From assembly GCF_001425005.1 (NCBI RefSeq), contig NZ_LMDB01000039.1, positions 62,001 to 126,000 of the forward strand: a stretch of 64,000 nucleotides of DNA, in the 5' to 3' direction. Made by a program: the position numbers and the translations under genes. Shown piece by piece: positions 28,047 to 37,091 of this stretch. This DNA is from Duganella sp. Root336D2. Its GTDB lineage: Bacteria; Pseudomonadota; Gammaproteobacteria; Burkholderiales; Burkholderiaceae_D. The notes below the pieces were generated by a model that ran no database searches, was not told the origin of the DNA, and worked only from the letters and a program-made list of their open reading frames with translations. Every line of letters begins with the position of its first letter. Positions within the stretch are counted from its first letter, which is position 1.

Positions 28047-30587
28047 TTGTACCCCACACCCTTGCGTCACCTCGCAGCCGCCGCTTTGCTGGCCTGCGCT
28101 ACCCTGTCCGCCCAAGCCCAGATTTCGACCGGCACCATGACCGTGCCGCGCAAGCTGCATCAGACCAGCCCCCTGCAGGATGGACGCATCCTGGTGACTG
28201 GCGGCACGCCTTTGCCTGGCAGTACCGTCTACGCCAGCACGGAGATTTTTGATCCCGTTACCGGACAATTTACGCCCGCCGCGCCTATGCTGACTGCGCG
28301 CCAGGAGCATGGCGCCGTCACCATGCAAGATGGCCGCATCCTGGTGGCCGGCGGTGTGTCACTCAACAACGCCATGACCAACTCGGCGGAAATCTTCGAC
28401 CCCGTCACGGGAAGCTGGAGCGCCACCGGCAATATGAACACACAGCGCTATCGCACCATTGCACGCTTGCTGCCGGACGGTCGCGTGATGGTGATGGGCA
28501 AGGATAGCTACTCGACTGGCAGCTTTGCCGACATTTTTGATCCAGCAACCGGCACCTTCACCAAGACTGGCAATTACGTCGACAATTCCGGCTGGCACGG
28601 CCTGATCGTACTGGCCGACGGCCGCGTAATGAAAGTCGGCGGCCAGGCCAGCACGGCCACCGGTCCCTATTATCCGTACAGCACGCGAGCGGAAATCTGG
28701 GATCCGGCCACCAACCAGTGGACTGCTACCGGCCCGATGGCGGTTGGGCGCTCGGGAATACAGCCGATACTGCTGGCAGACGGCAAAGTCCTGGTGGCGG
28801 GCGGCCGCAACGCCATGACCCTCAACAGCACGGAAATCTATGATCCCGCCACCGCGACATTCAGCGCTGGCCCGAATATGCCAACAGGATTTGAGCCCCA
28901 GGCGGCGGCCATGCTGCCAAACGGCGATGCGCTCTACCTTGCGGGCTTCCAGCGCCAGCTGATGCATTACCGGGCGGCTGATGCGCGCTGGAGCCTGACC
29001 GGCGCGCAACGCACCAACGCGGTCGATTCGGCCTTGTCGCGCTTGCCGGATGGGAATGTCTTGATTTCTGGCGGGTCTACCCTGAACGATGCAACGAACT
29101 ACGCCGCAGTCTGGGACCAGGCCTGTGCCGGCCAGGTCGCGGGCATAGTAGGCAGCACGCAAACCGTCGGCAGCGACGGCGGCGCAGTGAATTTCACCGT
29201 GACGGCCTCGCCAGGATGCCGCTTTGAAGCGGCCAACCTGCCGGCCTGGCTGACCCTCGCCGGCAGCAACCCGCTACAAACGCCGGCCAGCGGCCCTGCT
29301 ACCGTTACCTTCACGGCGGCCGCCAACCAAACTGGCGCTGCGCGCAACGGATCCTTCCTGTTGGCCAACGAAACCGTGACCGTGATGCAGGCAGCTTCCG
29401 CAAACTGCACTTCCACGCCGACCGTATCGCCGGCAATCAGCACGCTGACGCGCAGCGGCGGCACCGGCTATCTGAACGTAACAGCCAGTGCCGGCTGCCC
29501 TTGGACAGTCTCGGCCATGCCAAGCTTTGTCACCGTGAAAGGAGCAAGCAGCGGCACCGGCAACGGCTATATCACTTACTCGGCTGCTGCCAACCCCGAC
29601 ACGGCGGCACGCAGCGGCTCCGGGCAGATCACCTCGCTGGGCCAAGCGACCGTATTCTCCTTCACGCAGGATGGCGTTCCCTGTCCGACCGCACCGACGG
29701 TCACCTTGAACTCTTCCAACTTCCCTGCTGCGGGCGGCACGGTGAGCGGCAGCGTCAACGCACCGGCCACCTGCAACTGGAACATCAGCTTGCCAAGCTG
29801 GGCCGCAGTAACGGCTAGCAATAGCGGCAATGCCAGCGGCAGCGGCAACAGCCCGATTGCCATCACTGCAGCAGCCAACACGGGCGCTGCCCGCAACATT
29901 TCCGCCGCCGTATCGGGTCCGGGCGCCTCCTCCAGCTTCACCCTGAGCCAGGAAGGTTCTCCTTGCCTGAACTGGACCATCAGCCCGACCAGTCTTGCCA
30001 TTCCGGCGGCCGGCACCAGCAGCAGCTTCACGGTGACGGCACCCGGCAGCTGCACCTGGAACTTGAGTGGATTGCCGTCCTGGCTGACCCTCACCAGCCC
30101 CGGCACCAGCAGCGGCAGTGGCAACGCCACCCTCGGCTTCACCGTGGCGGCCAACACGGGTGCGGCGCGCAGTGCCACCGCAACCATGTCCGGCTCCGGC
30201 CCGGCGCTGTCGGTCAACCTGAGCCAGGCATCGACCCAGGTAACGTCCTGCAGCACGCCAATCACCAGTGGTAGTCCGGTCAGCGGCTTGCTCAAGTCGA
30301 ACGGTTGCCCGGCGGGTGCGCGCGGCAGCAGCTATTACGTCGACCGCTATACCTTCTCTGGTACGGCCGGCAAGGTCGTGACGATCGCCATGTCGTCATC
30401 GAGCTTCGACACATACCTGTACCTGCGCGACCAGGCCGGCAATGTGGTCAAATCGGATGATGACGGCGGCGGCGGCACCAACTCGCGCATCAGCTTCAGC
30501 TTGCCATCCACCGGCACCTACACCATCGAAGCTACCAGCTACGGCAGCAATGCGACCGGTGCCTACAACCTGACCTTCACTCAGTAA
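28047..30587 (+). CDS. Secreted kelch-repeat protein with BACON-like repeats and PPC domain
   Basis: The protein of about 846 residues begins with a TTG preceded by GAGGAG; this start gives a clean signal peptide ending LSAQA. Residues about 25-350 form kelch-type beta-propeller repeats (DGRILVTGG, TEIFDPVTG and variants). Residues about 355-735 hold four similar Ig-like modules with the pattern C-x-W-x-(I/V)-S...SFxxSQxG, resembling BACON or similar adhesive domains. The C-terminus (about 745-846) is a PPC-type beta-sandwich (YTFSGTAGKVVTIAMSS, then FDTYLYLRD). No catalytic domain is visible. It is probably an extracellular binding protein. Its end overlaps that of the converging acetyltransferase gene by 7 bases. 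Confidence 0.85.
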   Translation: MYPTPLRHLAAAALLACATLSAQAQISTGTMTVPRKLHQTSPLQDGRILVTGGTPLPGSTVYASTEIFDPVTGQFTPAAPMLTARQEHGAVTMQDGRILVAGGVSLNNAMTNSAEIFDPVTGSWSATGNMNTQRYRTIARLLPDGRVMVMGKDSYSTGSFADIFDPATGTFTKTGNYVDNSGWHGLIVLADGRVMKVGGQASTATGPYYPYSTRAEIWDPATNQWTATGPMAVGRSGIQPILLADGKVLVAGGRNAMTLNSTEIYDPATATFSAGPNMPTGFEPQAAAMLPNGDALYLAGFQRQLMHYRAADARWSLTGAQRTNAVDSALSRLPDGNVLISGGSTLNDATNYAAVWDQACAGQVAGIVGSTQTVGSDGGAVNFTVTASPGCRFEAANLPAWLTLAGSNPLQTPASGPATVTFTAAANQTGAARNGSFLLANETVTVMQAASANCTSTPTVSPAISTLTRSGGTGYLNVTASAGCPWTVSAMPSFVTVKGASSGTGNGYITYSAAANPDTAARSGSGQITSLGQATVFSFTQDGVPCPTAPTVTLNSSNFPAAGGTVSGSVNAPATCNWNISLPSWAAVTASNSGNASGSGNSPIAITAAANTGAARNISAAVSGPGASSSFTLSQEGSPCLNWTISPTSLAIPAAGTSSSFTVTAPGSCTWNLSGLPSWLTLTSPGTSSGSGNATLGFTVAANTGAARSATATMSGSGPALSVNLSQASTQVTSCSTPITSGSPVSGLLKSNGCPAGARGSSYYVDRYTFSGTAGKVVTIAMSSSSFDTYLYLRDQAGNVVKSDDDGGGGTNSRISFSLPSTGTYTIEATSYGSNATGAYNLTFTQ

Positions 30588-31069
30588 GGATCAGGACTCC
30601 AGACGGCGTACATCTCGCCGTCTTCCTCTACGCCTGCCTCAATGAAACTGCAGGCGGCGTAGAGGTCCTTCGCCACGGCATTATCGGGACGGTAGCTGGT
30701 CCAGATGCGCTGCACATCCCCATGCTTCTGGATTTCCGCCAGCGCCAGGTCGACCGCGCGGCGGCCATGCCCCCTGCCCTGGTAGCGGCGGTCCACCATC
30801 AGGTGGAAGATCGCGTAATCGCCCGGTTCTTCTTCGGCGCCGGGAGCGGCGTACATCAGGAAGCCGACCACGCCGTCCTTGTCGGCGATGGCGCGGCAAT
30901 GGTAGTTCGGGTGGAAGCTGGCTTCTGCAATCGCGTACATGGTGTCCGACGCATGGTCCTGCTGGTGATCATGCAGTTCCAGTTCAGCGATGTTGGCGAA
31001 ATTCTCCTTGGTGACCACGTGCAGGTTGGTGGTGATCCATTTCCTCAGGAAGCGTTGATATGGTCTCAT
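30581..31069 (-). CDS. GNAT acetyltransferase, spermidine acetyltransferase (BltD/PaiA)-like
   Basis: The 162-residue protein has the GNAT core with the acetyl-CoA loop RRYQGRGHGRRAV near residue 94 and the downstream SYRPDNAVAKDLYAACSF segment. It resembles BltD/PaiA-type polyamine acetyltransferases. An AAGGAG box lies 7 bases upstream of the ATG. It is the second of two related GNAT genes, 20 bases downstream of the first, and is likely cotranscribed from the attenuator-controlled promoter upstream. The true acceptor substrate is not known. Confidence 0.88.
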   Translation of the reverse strand: MRPYQRFLRKWITTNLHVVTKENFANIAELELHDHQQDHASDTMYAIAEASFHPNYHCRAIADKDGVVGFLMYAAPGAEEEPGDYAIFHLMVDRRYQGRGHGRRAVDLALAEIQKHGDVQRIWTSYRPDNAVAKDLYAACSFIEAGVEEDGEMYAVWSPDPY

Positions 31070-31089: not shown

Positions 31090-31536
31090 TTACAGCTCTA
31101 GTACTGCATTCATTTCGCCATCCTCGTCGACGTCGGTTTCGACGAAGCCCATGCTGGCGTAAAGCTCTTTAGCCCTGTTGTTGTCCGGCTGGTAGCTGAT
31201 CCAGATCTTGCGCACGCCGCCGCGCGCACGGATCTCGGCCAGCGCCATATGCAGCGCCTCGCGGCCATAGCCCTTGCCCTGGTGCAGGATGTCCACCATC
31301 AGGCGCCATACGCCGAACTCGCCGGGGTGGCCCTCCAGTTGCAGGTCGACATACATCAGGAAGCCAACCGGCTCGCCGCCGGCGTAGATGCCGCGCGGCT
31401 GCATCTCCGGATAGAAGCTGGCTTGTGCGATCGAATAGGCGTTGCTGGCGATGTAGTCGCGCTGGTAGTCCAGCAGCCGCAAGTCGGTGATGTCGTCGAA
31501 GTTCTGTCGCGTGACAGCTTTGAGTTGGATCTCCAT
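31090..31536 (-). CDS. GNAT acetyltransferase, BltD-like
   Basis: The 148-residue GNAT protein has YIASNAYSIAQASFYPEMQP, then GFLMYVDLQ, the acetyl-CoA loop HQGKGYGREAL and SYQPDNNRAKELYASMGF, an order of motifs typical of BltD/PaiA-type spermine/spermidine acetyltransferases. It is a close relative of the next gene. The ATG is preceded by GGAGGAAAGGA. The gene lies directly downstream of an intrinsic terminator with a leader peptide, so its expression is probably controlled by attenuation. Acetylation of a polyamine or an antibiotic-like amine is plausible but unproven. Confidence 0.9.
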   Translation of the reverse strand: MEIQLKAVTRQNFDDITDLRLLDYQRDYIASNAYSIAQASFYPEMQPRGIYAGGEPVGFLMYVDLQLEGHPGEFGVWRLMVDILHQGKGYGREALHMALAEIRARGGVRKIWISYQPDNNRAKELYASMGFVETDVDEDGEMNAVLEL

Positions 31537-31569
31537 GATTCCTTTCCTCCATGCGCCGGGACCAAAAAA

Positions 31570-31607
31570 ACAAAAACCCCGGCAAGTATCCTTACCGGGG
31601 TTTTTGT
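31570..31607 (-). terminator. Attenuator terminator of the GNAT operon
   Basis: A 13-base stem (ACAAAAACCCCGG with CCGGGGTTTTTGT) followed by a T-rich run on the minus strand, ending about 35 bases before the GNAT start codon. Upstream of it, GCTCGGGG can pair either with a GCCC segment at the leader stop codon or with CCCCGAGC at 31621-31628, giving mutually exclusive hairpins. Confidence 0.85.
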
Positions 31608-31669
31608 CGTGGGACGTCCGGCTCGGGGGTGGCGATTTGCCAGCAGCCCCGAGCGCACGCGCATCAGGG

Positions 31670-31711
31670 CTATCTGGTGTGCTTAATGCAGGTGATAGCG
31701 AAATTGCGCAT
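31670..31711 (-). CDS. Leader peptide MRNFAITCIKHTR
   Basis: A 13-codon open frame starts 7 bases after an AAAGGA box and ends with TAG just where the first attenuator hairpin begins. It lies between a good promoter and a terminator, the arrangement of translational attenuators. It has no run of a single amino acid, so sensing a general translation block is more likely than sensing one amino acid. The same layout precedes rtcB. Confidence 0.7.
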   Translation of the reverse strand: MRNFAITCIKHTR

Positions 31712-31754
31712 GACTGTCCTTTCTTAATCTGGGTTATGAAACTAACGAGCGCTG

Positions 31755-31784
31755 ATTCTGCGCTCTGCGCGAATGTAGTGTCAA
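31755..31784 (-). promoter_or_regulatory. Promoter of the GNAT attenuator operon
   Basis: On the minus strand TTGACA (31779-31784) and CAGAAT (31755-31760) are separated by 18 bases. The rtcB promoter has the same two hexamers with the same spacing. Confidence 0.75.
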
Positions 31785-31893
31785 GAAAAACTTTGTATAA
31801 ATATCCACCCGATGCACTTGTTCAGGACAGCGTCGCATTTAGCGCGTGACCATCCGTGCTCCACTGATCGCGCAGGTTTGCTACCGTCAATCC

Positions 31894-32610
31894 ATGATGA
31901 GCGTCTACAAGCTTGCGCTACCGCTGCTGCTGGCCTTCCATGGGCTCGCCGCTGCGGCCGAGCCCAGCCGTATCAGCGTGCAGACGCTGGCAGCGGGCAA
32001 GGAAGTTGCGCGCATCATGCTGCCGATCGGGCAGCAGCACAATGTGCAGGTGGAGGCAAACCAGGTCGAGCAGGATAGCCGCGGCACCACCCATGCGCGC
32101 GGCAATGTACGCGTGATCATCCGCACGGGCGGCGCCGCCACCACCATCGCCGGCGAAGAGATCATCATCAAGCGCAAGGTGCTCGATACCCGCGAACTGG
32201 CCGCCATCCGTGCACTGGAAGGCATGGGCGCCCCCGGCAAGCGCGATGCGGCGCGCGACCGCAAGGAGTTGGCGCGGCTGAAGACCATCGTGGCCTCGCA
32301 CGGTTGGCCCGGCACGCGCTTCGCCGGACCCGAACTTTCGCAGAACGCCTTTGCGGTCCTGATGCGCATGCCTGAGAAGGAACTGGAGGCCCTGCTTCCA
32401 GCCCTGCGTGAAGCGCAAGCCGAGAACGACGTGCCTGGCACGCAACTGGCGCAGGCCGAGGACCGGCTGCGCATCGCCAAGGGACTGCCGCAACGTTATG
32501 GCACCCAGCTCGCCGGCGGCAAGCCCGTTGTGATCGAAGACGCCAACGAGCTCAATATCCGGCGCAAGATGATGGGGCTGCCGCCGATGCCTGTCTCCTC
32601 CGGCCAATAG
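31894..32610 (+). CDS. Exported protein with DUF6624-like C-terminus
   Basis: From the ATG at 31894 the protein is about 238 residues with a signal peptide (MMSVYKLALPLLLAFHGLAA). After it comes a segment VEANQVEQDSRGTTHARGNV that resembles the repeat of LptA/OstA-type proteins. The C-terminal half has KTIVASHGWPGTRFAGPE and ends with AEDRLRIAKGLPQRYGTQL, the pattern of DUF6624 proteins. No enzyme activity is known for that family. A GTG at 31846 would add a non-signal extension and is less likely. The stop abuts the converging VWA gene. Confidence 0.7.
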   Translation: MMSVYKLALPLLLAFHGLAAAAEPSRISVQTLAAGKEVARIMLPIGQQHNVQVEANQVEQDSRGTTHARGNVRVIIRTGGAATTIAGEEIIIKRKVLDTRELAAIRALEGMGAPGKRDAARDRKELARLKTIVASHGWPGTRFAGPELSQNAFAVLMRMPEKELEALLPALREAQAENDVPGTQLAQAEDRLRIAKGLPQRYGTQLAGGKPVVIEDANELNIRRKMMGLPPMPVSSGQ

Positions 32611-34416
32611 CTATTCCGTAATGTAGAAGACCTCTCCGCGCGGGCTAAATGGCAAGCGGCGCGCATCGGCCAGCAGGTAAGCGTGATCCATGCTGGTCTC
32701 GAGCTTGTCTTCGCACCAGCCGTCCGTCACCACCAGGACGGGCCCATGCGCCGGCATCTCGCCTTTCCGCGCCAGGTCGCGCAAGTGGTCGAAGCCTGGC
32801 TGCAGCACGGTCCCGCCGCGCCCGCGCAGCGTAAAGCGGTCCAGCAGGTTTTCCGGCTCGACCCAGCCGCAGTCGTAGGCCATGGCATCGCAGCACACCA
32901 GCCGCACGGCAATCACGTCGCGCGCCATCGCATAGCTGGCAATGGCGCCAAGCGCCTTGCCCAGCATCGCCGGCTCCATCGAGCCGGACGTGTCGAGCAG
33001 CACGCCAAAGACGCGGCTCTTGCGTTCCTCTTCCGGCGGCTTGCACAGCATTGGGCGGGGAATGTCCGGCGTAGCCCCTTGCCGGCGCGACGGCCGCACA
33101 TAGCTGCGCCGCATTTCCAGCGGCGGGAAGCGCTCATCGAACCAGTGCGCCAGCCGCGCATCCCAGGGAATGGGCGGCTGTGCCAGGCTGCGGATTTCTT
33201 CCAGCAGGCCGGCCGGCACGGTGCCGCGGCGGCCATCGTGTTCCCAGCGGTCCATGCCTTGCGCCAGCGCGCGGCGGCAATACTCCTCGGCGTCGGTGAA
33301 CGGCGCACCGCTATCCTCGCCCAGCAAGTCGGGCTGGCCGGTACCGCGCAGCGTGGCGAGCTTGCGGGCACGGCGAATATCGCGCGCCAGGCCGTCGTAG
33401 ATTTCGTCGGCGGATTGTCCGGCCAGATCAGCGTCATACAGCATGCCGATGGCAGGCGGCGAACCGACCTGCATCTCGAGCAGCCAGCTGTTGATGGCGA
33501 AATCGCAGGCGACATTCCACAGCACCGGATCGCGTCCGCGCCGGCGTGAAGCATGATTGAGCCCGGCGTGCAGCAATTCGTGGGCGAGCACGAACAGCGT
33601 TTCATCATCGTTCAGGCCTGCCGCCGGATTGATCCAGATGCGGCGGGCACCGACGTCGATGGCTGCGACACGAATGTCGTATTGCTGGCAGATGCGGATA
33701 TCGTTCTCCAGGTCGAAGCTGGCGGCCAGTGCGCCCAGCAAGGGATAGCGGTCCATCATGCGCCGGCGCGCACGGTGTTCGCGGCTGTGCGGCTGGGCCG
33801 CCTGGCTCGCAGGCGCACCGCCGGCGATGGCAAGCGCCCTGCCAACGCCGCGCGCGATGCCATCCGCCAGCAATTCTTGCCAGGGCACAGGCGTCTGGCG
33901 TCGCCATGCGACCGGCTTTTCGTCGAGCGCCGCGAACAGCGATGCGCCGCCCGCGATATCGGCGTGCCAGGCCAGCAGCGGCGCGGGACAGCCCTCGGTG
34001 CAAAAGCGCTGCAGCAAGGTTTCCACGCTAGCGTCCACGCATTCCGGCAAACGCCACTCCTCCGGCAATTCACCGAGCTTGAGTTCAGCACAGAAGCGCG
34101 ATGCAGACACCAACGCCGCCACTTCCCACAGGTCTGCCGGTTCACGGCGCCGCACCAGTCCAAGCCCAAGGCAGGAAAGCATGATGCCGACCACGCGCGC
34201 CCATTCCTCCGGCTGCGCGCGGCGTTTCGGGTGCAGCCATACCGTACCGCCGGGCGAGAGTGCCAGCCATCCCTTGGCGGGAGCTATTTGATGCGTCGGA
34301 TCTGGGCGAAATTGAACCTGCTTGGCGATTGCGCCCAGGACCGGATGCGCCTGCACCAAGGCAATGCCGGCCTGGCGCGCAGCCGCCGCTGGATCGGGCT
34401 TCTTGTCCTTGCTCAT
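32611..34416 (-). CDS. VWA-like metallopeptidase-domain protein (DUF2201 type)
   Basis: The 601-residue protein combines a zinc-peptidase-like motif HELLHAGLNH (residues 279-288) with a C-terminal VWA-like domain whose metal site is DTSGSM (475-480). This architecture is that of DUF2201 proteins, which are regularly encoded with a MoxR ATPase. Its start overlaps the MoxR stop (ATGA), so it is the last gene of the rtcB operon. By analogy with other MoxR-VWA pairs it may be an ATPase-controlled adaptor or protease, but the HELLH motif has not been shown to be active in this family. Confidence 0.87.
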   Translation of the reverse strand: MSKDKKPDPAAAARQAGIALVQAHPVLGAIAKQVQFRPDPTHQIAPAKGWLALSPGGTVWLHPKRRAQPEEWARVVGIMLSCLGLGLVRRREPADLWEVAALVSASRFCAELKLGELPEEWRLPECVDASVETLLQRFCTEGCPAPLLAWHADIAGGASLFAALDEKPVAWRRQTPVPWQELLADGIARGVGRALAIAGGAPASQAAQPHSREHRARRRMMDRYPLLGALAASFDLENDIRICQQYDIRVAAIDVGARRIWINPAAGLNDDETLFVLAHELLHAGLNHASRRRGRDPVLWNVACDFAINSWLLEMQVGSPPAIGMLYDADLAGQSADEIYDGLARDIRRARKLATLRGTGQPDLLGEDSGAPFTDAEEYCRRALAQGMDRWEHDGRRGTVPAGLLEEIRSLAQPPIPWDARLAHWFDERFPPLEMRRSYVRPSRRQGATPDIPRPMLCKPPEEERKSRVFGVLLDTSGSMEPAMLGKALGAIASYAMARDVIAVRLVCCDAMAYDCGWVEPENLLDRFTLRGRGGTVLQPGFDHLRDLARKGEMPAHGPVLVVTDGWCEDKLETSMDHAYLLADARRLPFSPRGEVFYITE

Positions 34417-35486
34417 GCCGTTTCCTTCTGGCCGCGGCCGGCCAGCCGCGGCAGGTCGCGTGCTACTTCGACCAGGAACCAGGCCGGCAGGCGGCGTCCT
34501 TGCGCATCTTCACCGAGCAGCGATTGCGCGATTTCGACGCTGATGCGCGCCAGGTCGCGCAGCATATCCTTGGCGCGGATCGACAAGGCATGGTGCGCGC
34601 TGCGTACCGCTGATTCTTCCTCCGGCAATTCCTTCAGCAAGTGGGCGCGGAAAGACTGCGCGAGGAAGTACAGCACGTCGCGGTCCGCCGGAGAATCCGG
34701 CCAATGCTGGTCGCCCTTGATGATGGCATGCAGGCCGTGCTTGTGGCGCAACTGCTTAATGAAACCTTTGAAGTTGCCGGCATGGTTGGGCGAGAGCAAG
34801 CCGTAAGCCAATGCATCGAGCATTTCTTCGCCAGCATCCTCACCGAACGAATGCAGCGCATCGGACAGCATATGCCAGCTGCGCGGCGTTGAAAACGGCT
34901 CCTCATGCTTCGGCGGTTCGCTCCACAAGTGATCGGGGCGCAGCTGGATGTATTCCAGCACCCATGGGTGGATGCCGCCCTCGCCCTTGGCCCATTCGAG
35001 CCACTGGCGATGGTCGGAGCGCAGGTGGATATGCGCCATGCGGTTCACCAGCGCGGACGGCATCGGCTTGACGATGGCGGCGTCCTTGGCGCGGTTGCCC
35101 GCGCCAATCACGATAGTCCCTTTCGGCAAGTTGTACTCGCCGATGCGCTGGTCCAGGATCAGCGAATAGAACGCCTTCTGGATTTCGTGCGACGACGCAT
35201 TCAACTCGTCCAGGAACAGCACGAACGGCTCATCGCGCACGATGTTCGCCGGCGGGAAGAAGCGCGAGCACTTGCCGTCGATCTGCGGGATGCCCAGCAG
35301 GTCTTCCGGCGCGAGCTGGCTGCCGAGCAAAGAGACGCACTCCATGCCCACGGCTTCCGCAAAGCGGCGCACCAGGGCGCTCTTGCCGATGCCCGGCGGC
35401 CCCCACATGAATACCGGGCGTGTAATTGCAACGTGCAGCAGAAAGTCGATCGCCTGCTGCTGGTTCAACATGATTGCTGATTGCAT
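34413..35486 (-). CDS. MoxR-family AAA+ ATPase of the rtcB operon
   Basis: The 357-residue ATPase has Walker A GPPGIGKS at residues 29-36 and Walker B LFLDEL at 90-95, with an IVIGAGNRAKD sensor segment near 125. It is unlike the MoxR protein at 121-1230 outside the ATPase motifs, so the window carries two separate MoxR systems. A GGAGG box in the end of the 48-codon gene precedes its ATG by about 10 bases, and its stop overlaps the VWA gene. It probably remodels or activates the VWA-peptidase partner. Confidence 0.92.
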   Translation of the reverse strand: MQSAIMLNQQQAIDFLLHVAITRPVFMWGPPGIGKSALVRRFAEAVGMECVSLLGSQLAPEDLLGIPQIDGKCSRFFPPANIVRDEPFVLFLDELNASSHEIQKAFYSLILDQRIGEYNLPKGTIVIGAGNRAKDAAIVKPMPSALVNRMAHIHLRSDHRQWLEWAKGEGGIHPWVLEYIQLRPDHLWSEPPKHEEPFSTPRSWHMLSDALHSFGEDAGEEMLDALAYGLLSPNHAGNFKGFIKQLRHKHGLHAIIKGDQHWPDSPADRDVLYFLAQSFRAHLLKELPEEESAVRSAHHALSIRAKDMLRDLARISVEIAQSLLGEDAQGRRLPAWFLVEVARDLPRLAGRGQKETA

Positions 35487-35490
35487 GCGC

Positions 35491-35637
35491 TTACTCCTCC
35501 CGTTCCAGCTGGCGGCGCAGTTGCTGTTTCAACGCGCGGCGCGATTGTTCGATGCGCTGGTGGCCGCCGGCCTTGCGCTGGCGCGCCAGCACGGCCAGCG
35601 GGTTGCGCGGCTTAGGTAGTTTGATGGTTACCTTCAT
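35491..35637 (-). CDS. 48-residue basic protein between rtcB and moxR
   Basis: The protein begins MKVTIKLPKPRNPLAVLARQ and continues as an Arg/Gln-rich helix (SRRALKQQLRRQLEREE) to a TAA. An AAAGGA box formed by the rtcB end lies just before the ATG, and the stop is 4 bases before the moxR ATG, whose ribosome site it supplies. The tight packing and good ribosome site support a real gene. It is strongly basic and could bind RNA; I do not recognise a family. Confidence 0.75.
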   Translation of the reverse strand: MKVTIKLPKPRNPLAVLARQRKAGGHQRIEQSRRALKQQLRRQLEREE

Positions 35638-35640
35638 TGC

Positions 35641-36849
35641 TTATCCTTTCACGCACACGACTTGCTTCAGCGTGTGCACGATTTCGACCAGGTCGGATTG
35701 GTGTGCCATGACCTGGTCAATGTCTTTGTAGGCGGCGGGGATTTCATCCACCACGCCACCGTCCTTGCGGCATTCGATGCCCTGCGTCTGTTCGGCCAGG
35801 TCGAAACGATTGAATTTGCGTTTCGCCTCGCTGCGGCTCATGCGCCGTCCGGCCCCGTGCGAGCAGGAGCAGAACGATTCCTCGTTGCCCTTGCCGCGCA
35901 CGATGTAGCTGCGGGCACCCATGCTGCCGGGGATGATTCCCAGCTCGCCTTCGCGCGCCGAGATGGCGCCCTTGCGGGTGACGTACAGCTTGTGGCCGAA
36001 GTGCGATTCCTGCGCCACGTAGTTGTGGTGGCAGTTGATCGCTTCGCCATCGAGTTTGAACGGCGGGACGTGCGGCTCCAGTGCCGCCACCACGCGGCGC
36101 ATCATTTCGCGCCGGTTCAACATGGCATAGTCCTGCGCCCAATCCACCGCTTCCACATAGTCGTCGAACAGTTCCGAACCCTCGCTGAAGTAGGACAGGT
36201 CGCGGTCCGGCAAGTTCACCTTGTGCCGCATCATCTCCTTGCGTGCAGCGGAAATGAAGTAACGGCCGATGACATTGCCGATGCCGCGCGAGCCCGAATG
36301 CAGCATGATCCAGACGCGCTGCTCTTCATCGATACACAACTCGATGAAGTGGTTGCCGCCGCCCAGGGTGCCAATCTGGCAGATCCAGGTCTGCGCAAAC
36401 TTGTGCTGCATCTTCATGATGCCCTTGTGGCGCGCCACGATGCGGTCCAGGCGGTCGTTCAGCGGACGCCCAACGCGGGCGTGGGCGGAGCCGCGCACCT
36501 TGTCGAAGGCGTGCTGTTCGAAGCCGACCGGCACCAGCGTTTCGATGGCGCTGCGCACGCGCGCCAGGTTGTCCGGCAACTGGCTCGCAGTCAGCGTGGT
36601 ACGCACGGCGTTCATGCCGCAGCCGATGTCGACGCCGACAGCGGCAGGGATGATGGCGCCGCGCGTCGGGATTACGCTGCCGACGGTTGCACCGATCCCG
36701 GCGTGGACGTCGGGCATGGCTGCCACGTGCGGATGCACGATCGGCAGGTTCGAAATATTCAGCAGTTGCTGGATGGCCGAATGATCAATGTCATCCGTAT
36801 AGATGTGCACAGGCACCAGGCCTTTGTGCAGGCTTTGCTTGATTGGCAT
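35641..36849 (-). CDS. rtcB: RNA ligase RtcB
   Basis: The 402-residue protein has all RtcB hallmarks: DIGCGM near residue 74, GGGNHF near 163, HSGSRG near 184, HHNY near 273 and SHGAGRRMSR near 334, whose His is the guanylylation site. RtcB joins 2',3'-cyclic phosphate or 3'-phosphate RNA ends to 5'-OH ends using GTP and Mn2+, in tRNA and rRNA repair. It heads an operon with a 48-residue protein, a MoxR ATPase and a VWA peptidase-like protein. Upstream is an attenuator with a leader peptide, and the start codon itself lies in a hairpin. No rtcA or rtcR is in the window, so control differs from E. coli. Confidence 0.97.
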   Translation of the reverse strand: MPIKQSLHKGLVPVHIYTDDIDHSAIQQLLNISNLPIVHPHVAAMPDVHAGIGATVGSVIPTRGAIIPAAVGVDIGCGMNAVRTTLTASQLPDNLARVRSAIETLVPVGFEQHAFDKVRGSAHARVGRPLNDRLDRIVARHKGIMKMQHKFAQTWICQIGTLGGGNHFIELCIDEEQRVWIMLHSGSRGIGNVIGRYFISAARKEMMRHKVNLPDRDLSYFSEGSELFDDYVEAVDWAQDYAMLNRREMMRRVVAALEPHVPPFKLDGEAINCHHNYVAQESHFGHKLYVTRKGAISAREGELGIIPGSMGARSYIVRGKGNEESFCSCSHGAGRRMSRSEAKRKFNRFDLAEQTQGIECRKDGGVVDEIPAAYKDIDQVMAHQSDLVEIVHTLKQVVCVKG

Positions 36850-36867
36850 AACGTCTTTCGTTATGCC
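36845..36867 (-). promoter_or_regulatory. Hairpin enclosing the rtcB start codon
   Basis: On the minus strand GGCATAACG and CGTTATGCC form a perfect 9-base stem around AAAGA. The rtcB ATG is in the 3' arm and the AAAGA ribosome-binding-like sequence is the loop, so the fold could limit initiation. Confidence 0.65.
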
Positions 36868-36884
36868 GGGGCTGTAGAAACAAA

Positions 36885-36912
36885 AACCCCGGCGAGTTTC
36901 CTGGCCGGGGTT
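36885..36912 (-). terminator. Attenuator terminator of the rtcB operon
   Basis: A 9-base stem (AACCCCGGC with GCCGGGGTT) followed by TTTTTGTTT on the minus strand, about 40 bases before the rtcB start. Upstream, CTCGGGGC can pair with GCCCCG at the leader stop codon or with ACCCGAGC at 36932-36939. Confidence 0.85.
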
Positions 36913-36976
36913 CGTGTTGGAAGAACGACCGGCTCGGGTGGCTTGATTGCCTGCCCCGAGCGCGCGCGCTGCGGGG

Positions 36977-37015
36977 CTATCGAAGTTGCAGATTGTTGAT
37001 AGCCGTACGTGGCAT
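36977..37015 (-). CDS. Leader peptide MPRTAINNLQLR
   Basis: A 12-residue open frame preceded by AAAGGA and ending with TAG exactly at the base of the first attenuator hairpin. It has the same position relative to promoter and terminator as the leader peptide before the GNAT genes, and both end in Arg before a TAGCCC sequence. It is the likely sensor of ribosome progress for rtcB expression. Confidence 0.7.
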   Translation of the reverse strand: MPRTAINNLQLR

Positions 37016-37061
37016 GGTCGTCCTTTCGAAAATTCGGGTTAATAAAAAATCAGTGGACGCG

Positions 37062-37091
37062 ATTCTGCTCCCGCACTGAACGGGATGTCAA
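37062..37091 (-). promoter_or_regulatory. Promoter of the rtcB operon
   Basis: TTGACA (37086-37091) and CAGAAT (37062-37067) on the minus strand with an 18-base spacer that contains an inverted repeat TCCCG/CGGGA. It matches the GNAT promoter in both hexamers and spacing. Confidence 0.75.

Follow-up and report, generated by a model that had tools for sequence, protein, structure and literature searches.

Two operons in a 64,000-nucleotide stretch of the genome of Duganella sp. Root336D2 (contig NZ_LMDB01000039.1, positions 62,001 to 126,000; the whole stretch is hereafter called the window) are each preceded by a copy of one RNA element of about 150 nucleotides (nt). One copy stands before a gene for the RNA ligase RtcB and the other before a pair of GNAT acetyltransferase genes. 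The element is a real RNA family, previously undescribed within the scope of our literature and Rfam comparison. We propose, with a probability of roughly 0.55, that it is a ribosome-controlled transcription attenuator resembling that of the his operon, with an additional lock on the Shine-Dalgarno (SD) sequence of its leader, and that a ribosome early in the leader opens the operon. The element probably lets the cell switch on an operon of rtcB and a gene for a small basic protein when ribosomes get stuck. On this reading ribosome-mediated attenuation gains a new variant, one whose anatomy is firm and whose trigger we infer.

Most of what is known about how bacteria regulate RNA repair concerns RtcR, a sensor of tRNA halves. 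If our proposal is right, a lineage of rtcB would be controlled by a ribosome on a 12-codon leader rather than by RtcR, and a leader RNA that hides its own ribosome-binding site is a design that could report slow ribosomes generally. The small basic protein, kept under the switch even without rtcB, is a candidate translation-stress factor whose function is directly testable.

Two leaders of one RNA family

The first-pass annotation of the window described, upstream of both genes, a promoter, an AAAGGA box, a short leader open reading frame (ORF), GC hairpins and a terminator, and the minus-strand sequence reads in that order. Three features go beyond that description: an anti-SD segment after the second hairpin, a GGCTA/TAGCC helix inside the leader ORF, and the small basic gene at 35637-35491. 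Segments are named in their order along the transcript: leader SD, a (in the leader ORF), b (starting at the leader stop), c, d, d', e and f. Two covariance models were used, R2 built from nine elements and R3 from 34. The rtcB leader comprises:

37062..37091, minus strand: promoter of the rtcB transcript, TTGACA (37091-37086), N18, CAGAAT (37067-37062), read in the sequence
36882..37028, minus strand: the entire rtcB attenuator, matched by R3 at 124.4 bits, E 9.6e-30 (the element is among R3's 34 training elements)
37026-37021, minus strand: AAAGGA box, read in the sequence
37016..37025, minus strand: SD arm AAGGACGACC, pairing with d' at 36921-36930 (duplex -14.7 kcal/mol)
36977..37015, minus strand: leader ORF MPRTAINNLQLR-TAG of 12 codons, ATG at 37015 and TAG at 36979-36977
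36998..37004, minus strand: segment a, GGCTATC, within the leader ORF; partner GATAGCC at 36975-36981
36972..36979, minus strand: segment b, TAGCCCCG, beginning at the leader stop; partner a or c
36954..36961, minus strand: segment c, GCTCGGGG; partner b or d
36932..36938, minus strand: segment d, CCCGAGC; partner c
36921..36930, minus strand: segment d', GGTCGTTCTT; anti-SD, or putative antiterminator with e
36881..36912, minus strand: intrinsic terminator (segments e and f and a T run), from sequence and folding

The GNAT leader has the corresponding parts:

31755..31784, minus strand: promoter of the GNAT transcript, TTGACA (31784-31779), N18, CAGAAT (31760-31755), read in the sequence
31572..31724, minus strand: the entire GNAT attenuator, matched by R3 at 99.3 bits, E 1.9e-23 (also in R3's training set)
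31722-31717, minus strand: AAAGGA box, read in the sequence
31670..31711, minus strand: leader ORF MRNFAITCIKHTR-TAG of 13 codons, ATG at 31711 and TAG at 31672-31670
31612..31619, minus strand: segment d', GGACGTCC, pairing with the SD arm GGACAGTC at 31712-31719 with one bulge (the same two arms in L036, -8.0 kcal/mol)
31572..31605, minus strand: intrinsic terminator, from sequence and folding

The two leaders are homologous, with a mean column identity of 79% in a pairwise alignment, and belong to one covariance-model family, in support of the view that a single shared element precedes both operons. With the terminator included, none of 200 shuffles folds as well as either leader (z -4.8 and -4.2). 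The same holds for the GNAT leader when its terminator is removed (z -3.3, 0 of 200 as good), whereas the rtcB leader deprived of its terminator gives only a weak folding signal (z -1.9, 9 of 200 shuffles as good). Their likeness is more than chance, since models built from relatives find many full-length elements in the family and none in the samples outside it.

The weak matches L140-L143 were excluded from every count. Searched with R2, 11 of the 74 genomes of the genus proved to hold a full-length element, and 73 of 392 sampled genomes of the family held 79 elements at E 1.8e-12 or better; 28 further family genomes held only weaker matches (up to E 0.001) that were not counted. The genus search contributes one extra element (in genome G006), giving a total of 80 elements in 74 genomes from 12 of 44 sampled genera, all within one GTDB family, the relatives of Janthinobacterium. 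In samples of the order (399 genomes) and the class (369 genomes), R3 yielded no full element outside the family; filtering was stricter here and few candidates were scored in each genome, so that distant relatives may have been missed. The matches obtained outside the family, all at E 6.7e-7 or weaker, were taken as terminator-like and not inspected individually. A pattern scan located 25 stretches in Janthinobacterium, Collimonas, Paucimonas lemoignei, Massilia glaciei and Rhodoferax, every one of which scores as a full element; these overlap the family genome sample and are not independent of it. A promoter of the form TTGAC(A/G), N17 or N18 and a CA-type -10 box precedes 67 of 79 elements. 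Rfam 15 gave no match at its cut-offs for the two window leaders, and no description of the element was found in the open-licence literature on rtcB, leader peptides and attenuation, as judged by titles and the beginnings of abstracts.

Structure, reading frame and the proposed switch

For structural analysis, 34 diverse elements were picked from 73 distinct references, with L023-L026 and L110 left out. From a MAFFT alignment of these, supplied with no structure, RNAalifold recovered SD:d', a:b, c:d and e:f, and 9 of the 30 consensus pairs have both partners altered in one or more sequences. The named structure is paired in 93.0% of cells and contains 10 double-change pairs versus 5.1 in shuffles that ignore the relatedness of the elements (0 of 500 as high); what was first seen in two copies recurs with covariation in the family. 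Further pair types are only slightly above chance (26 vs. 24.1, 29 of 500). Over 47 distinct pairs, the SD and d' arms of the same element pair at a mean of -11.7 kcal/mol, whereas permuting the partners gives -9.5 (standard deviation, sd, 0.34; 0 of 5000 as low), and own-partner energies for a:b likewise lie below all permutations (0 of 5000, 41 pairs). L134 was left out of the SD:d' permutation and later tests, although its leader too ends in TAG at b, and L139, which differs in segment a, was left out of the a:b and codon tests. The terminator e:f, claimed earlier for the two window leaders, is paired in 97.9% of cells over the 34 elements and is followed by the T run. A helix between the start codon and the linker (CATG/GCATG) was rejected as a firm part of the structure, as 85.9% of cells pair with no covariation and 133 of 5000 permutations are as good; such a helix might nevertheless form.

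The reading frame of the leader is conserved, and its translation is predicted. The distance from start codon to b is a multiple of 3 in all 78 elements with TAGC at b, across leaders of four lengths (11, 12, 13 and 16 codons), and the first in-frame stop lies at b in 78 of 79, L137 stopping two codons early. The divergent L139 has a 9-codon ORF with TAA just before b. Individual codons are not conserved and no amino acid is fixed, so that of the leader conservation at issue in the first-pass annotation the frame holds and the codons do not. That annotation also had the leaders end in Arg-TAG. Both window leaders do so, but the family as a whole does not: the last sense codon of 79 leaders is R in 24, H in 21, K in 8, T in 8, F in 6, N in 4, S in 3, I in 2, Y in 2 and P in 1 (one-letter code). 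Arg-TAG was rejected as an arrest signal given this variation, and is incidental; the base preceding TAG changes in step with its partner in a:b (pair 34-65: UA 16, GC 9, AU 4). Of 58 distinct leader peptides, only 3 contain the arrest motif R/K-X-R/K. As had been noted, the leaders contain no amino-acid run; a run of codons for a product amino acid was looked for and only mixed NAN codons were seen, and the cargo is not biosynthetic.

In the mechanism that we propose, SD:d', a:b and c:d would form a three-way junction in the resting transcript, hiding the SD and leaving e free for the e:f terminator. A ribosome at the stop codon would still permit c:d and SD:d', leading to termination. A ribosome on the first codons, in contrast, would cover the SD and a, so that b would pair with c; d', lacking its SD partner, would pair with e, delaying the terminator and allowing RNA polymerase to enter the operon. 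Slow or frozen ribosomes early in the leader would in this way lead to production of the small basic protein, usually together with RtcB. The two helix sets presumably parallel the A-F lettering of the his attenuator, A:B/C:D/E:F versus B:C/D:E.

We modelled these states with partition functions for transcripts ending at e in 56 distinct 12-codon elements, masking an assumed ribosome footprint of P-14 to P+14 and expressing each helix as expected pairs as a share of the nominal helix. With no ribosome, SD:d' is 0.87 and d':e 0.09. An A site at codons 2-5 gives SD:d' of 0.00-0.08, d':e of 0.76-0.84 and b:c of 0.96-1.00; at codon 6, d':e is 0.37, and from codon 11 to the stop c:d is 0.96-0.97 and d':e 0.04-0.09. 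A second footprint shifts the values by about one codon and leaves their order unchanged. For a queue of two ribosomes, one of them on the start, d':e is 0.75 with the other at codon 10 and 0.49-0.60 with it at codons 11-13. The predicted "on" state is thus a ribosome near the leader start or a queue behind a stalled one, and absent or finished translation is predicted to be "off". These results point towards sensing of ribosomes that rest early in the leader, which is close to the general stalling suggested in the first-pass annotation; the leaders are nevertheless not neutral, since NAN codons are enriched in frame across the family.

Several results weigh against this proposal. At codons 7-9 the model gives b:c of 0.77-0.89, yet SD:d' is also 0.77-0.89 and d':e only 0.11-0.18 (0.11-0.24 over two footprints). 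In the full-length RNA, all 13 elements compared are more stable with e:f than in their best f-free structure, the margin being 7 to 23 kcal/mol (folds of the full element are shown for 15 hand-chosen elements); since the terminator is thermodynamically favoured, antitermination could only be kinetic and dependent on timing. For the alternative set, b:c with d':e, 92.3% of cells can pair, in agreement with the mutually exclusive hairpins noted earlier, but these cells are mostly invariant: double-change pairs number 2, where shuffles average 1.7 (311 of 500 reach that count), and covariation of d':e is weak (82 of 5000 permutations do as well). The search model already contained the first helix set, so the choice of elements leans towards that structure.

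Genes under the element

The operons behind the two leaders are composed as follows:

35641..36849, minus strand: rtcB (PF01139), the attenuated paralogue, E 6.4e-131
35491..35637, minus strand: small basic protein of 48 amino acids after rtcB, with no Pfam, NCBIfam or PHROGs family over cut-off
34413..35486, minus strand: MoxR-like AAA ATPase, by domain match
32611..34416, minus strand: DUF2201 metallopeptidase-like / VWA protein, by domain match
31090..31536, minus strand: GNAT 1; nearest PDB chains annotated as spermine/spermidine acetyltransferase, E 6.8e-15
30581..31069, minus strand: GNAT 2, in the same direction downstream of GNAT 1, by ORF and domain match

The most constant cargo of the element is the small basic protein, with or without RtcB. 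Of the 80 elements, 46 stand before rtcB, and in 45 of these a match to the small basic gene comes next, leaving one without; three precede an incomplete or interrupted rtcB plus the small gene, and 24 precede the small gene directly; L130, one of the 46 counted as rtcB, matches residues 1-320 only. The small gene therefore follows 72 of the 73 non-GNAT elements. The remaining seven elements precede GNAT genes (a pair in six, a single gene in L027). No GNAT copy was found beyond seven genomes of one genus, six of which also hold an rtcB copy 3-6 kb away, and given this range and proximity they appear to be a local duplication. The translation-stress regulon of rtcB and acetyltransferase genes that the first-pass annotation envisaged is not supported; the cargo is better described as the small basic protein, RtcB present or absent, with the GNAT copy as a probable local offshoot.

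The attenuated type of rtcB is present in 45 of the 392 family genomes (E 1e-175 or better), and the element lies 30 to 360 nt upstream of all 45 orthologues, the distance of 360 nt being measured from an incomplete rtcB match. A second rtcB type, 57-62% identical, had no element at E 0.01 among 21 loci. In the genome of the window this second rtcB (L190, contig C16:4672-6816) is divergent from an RtcR gene, and RtcR is present in 28 of the 74 genomes of the genus. Short rtcB remnants lie between attenuator and small gene in L126 and L132, where rtcB seems to have been lost and the switch and small gene retained. In a Rhodoferax metagenome-assembled genome (L161), MoxR-like AAA ATPase and DUF2201/VWA genes come after rtcB and the small gene in the same order as in the window.

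The small basic protein is about 48-60 amino acids long with PRNPL, AGAH and RR motifs, seen also in L052, L058, L108, L109, L113 and others. A profile search that scored 7988 candidates gave 1677 relatives at E 0.001 (the best 120 are listed). Nothing exceeded the cut-off in Pfam (five sequences), NCBIfam or PHROGs (three sequences each), and the best PDB profile match was at E 1.5. PF18113 was rejected as an assignment for the window protein, the match being sub-threshold at E 0.05. An AlphaFold2 model predicts one helix at residues 31-47 (pLDDT 72, pTM 0.37). One other genome of the class carries a relative (L188), with no match to the attenuated type of RtcB within its 3.1 kb. Beside the GNAT leader, a gene for a DUF6624 protein lies on the opposite strand (31846-32610, plus strand), between the rtcB operon and that leader, and matches to this protein adjoin all seven GNAT copies fetched.

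Other explanations and known systems

The leader might instead be a codon-specific, translation-based detector of damaged or missing tRNAs, a possibility that we regard as doubtful. NAN codons (Asn, His, Tyr, Asp, Gln, Lys) would poll U35 tRNAs, including those attacked by colicin E5-type nucleases; upon a late stall a second ribosome would queue on the start and the switch would open, yielding RtcB for possible tRNA repair and a small protein that may aid damaged ribosomes or tRNAs. If true, broken tRNAs would be sensed by a second route that does not involve RtcR. The codon usage of the leaders is consistent with the idea. Using 78 leaders in 20 clusters at 70% identity, codons after the conserved Ala and position shuffles within clusters, in-frame NAN codons amount to 53% vs. 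39% (sd 3.6) in shuffles (0 of 2000) and NAY codons to 32.5% vs. 20% (sd 3.5; 1 of 2000), although the 20 clusters share one ancestor and these figures therefore overstate independence. Frames +1 and +2 contain 19% and 43% NAN, a cruder test of the same bias gives 3 and 4 of 2000, and at position Ala+5 a NAN codon stands in 18.6 of the 20 weighted clusters. The two-ribosome queue modelled above would free d' for e when its leading ribosome is at codon 10. Colicin E5 cuts tRNA-Tyr, -His, -Asn and -Asp (PMC9223846, in excerpt), and RtcB operons elsewhere respond to tRNA halves (PMC7790460, in the part consulted). However, no amino acid is fixed in the leaders, a single ribosome at codons 7-9 leaves d' bound in the model, and part of the A bias may serve an RNA loop.

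Somewhat less probable still is an autogenous leader, in which the small basic protein, or RtcB, would bind the three-way junction in the manner of a ribosomal protein and the ORF would be secondary. A structured leader ahead of a short Lys/Arg-rich protein, as in 72 of 73 non-GNAT elements, is what such control would look like. Against it, neither gene comes directly after the element in the GNAT copies, an objection softened by the presence of rtcB and the small gene 3-6 kb from the GNAT element in 6 of 7 genomes; retention of the leader frame in 78 of 78 also argues against it. About equally improbable is an ordinary strong terminator with a structured 5' untranslated region that sets a constant low expression and does not switch. 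The terminator is favoured in every full-length state modelled, as this explanation predicts, but covariation of SD:d' across genera would be needless without a switch. A small-molecule riboswitch with an incidental ORF is very unlikely: the stable three-way junction followed by a terminator would suit one, as would the GCATG between b and c, the only stretch that most rows share and that the consensus fold leaves unpaired, but the other loops vary freely (the alignment being judged by eye), Rfam 15 has no match at threshold and the ORF frame is conserved.

The ribosome-controlled attenuator that we favour most resembles that of the his operon (RF00514 His_leader; PMC1183508, consulted in part), which likewise has a short leader ORF, alternating helices and an extra hairpin between pause hairpin and terminator, a hairpin stated in the excerpted text of that source to sharpen control. 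The element differs in having no His run, in pairing its leader SD with d' past the second hairpin, and in its cargo of small basic protein and rtcB. Membership in His_leader was rejected, as the window leaders, at 30.8 and 23.2 bits, fall far short of the cut-off of 49 and nine other elements had no match at E 0.5. In Bacillus subtilis, yxjB responds to tylosin by a comparable route, ribosome arrest in a short leader blocking termination before a translation-protecting gene (PMC6851288, in the portion available). Compared to leaders of that type, with the R/K-X-R/K motif given in the same portion, the element rarely carries the motif, sequesters its own SD and belongs to another phylum.

Stress control of the RNA ligase RtcB is also familiar from RtcR-controlled rtcBA operons (PMC7790460 and PMC12606134, both in excerpt). 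According to these excerpts, RtcR is a sigma-54 activator whose CARF domain binds tRNA halves, whereas the window rtcB has a sigma-70-like promoter and an attenuator. An RtcR gene divergent from rtcB, with a sigma-54 promoter, is the mark of the RtcR regulon and was not seen at the window rtcB: the sole RtcR found in the genome lies on contig C16 beside the other rtcB, and the window promoter reads TTGACA-N18-CAGAAT, with no scan made for sigma-54 motifs. Induction of rtcBA by colicin D and ribosome drugs (PMC12606134, in excerpt) and its control by tRNA halves give a reason, as far as these excerpts go, for tying rtcB to ribosome distress. The RtcB2-PrfH repair operon (PMC9223846, in the part consulted) likewise joins RtcB to a small partner gene, although the partner here is a basic protein of about 48-60 amino acids and not a release factor.

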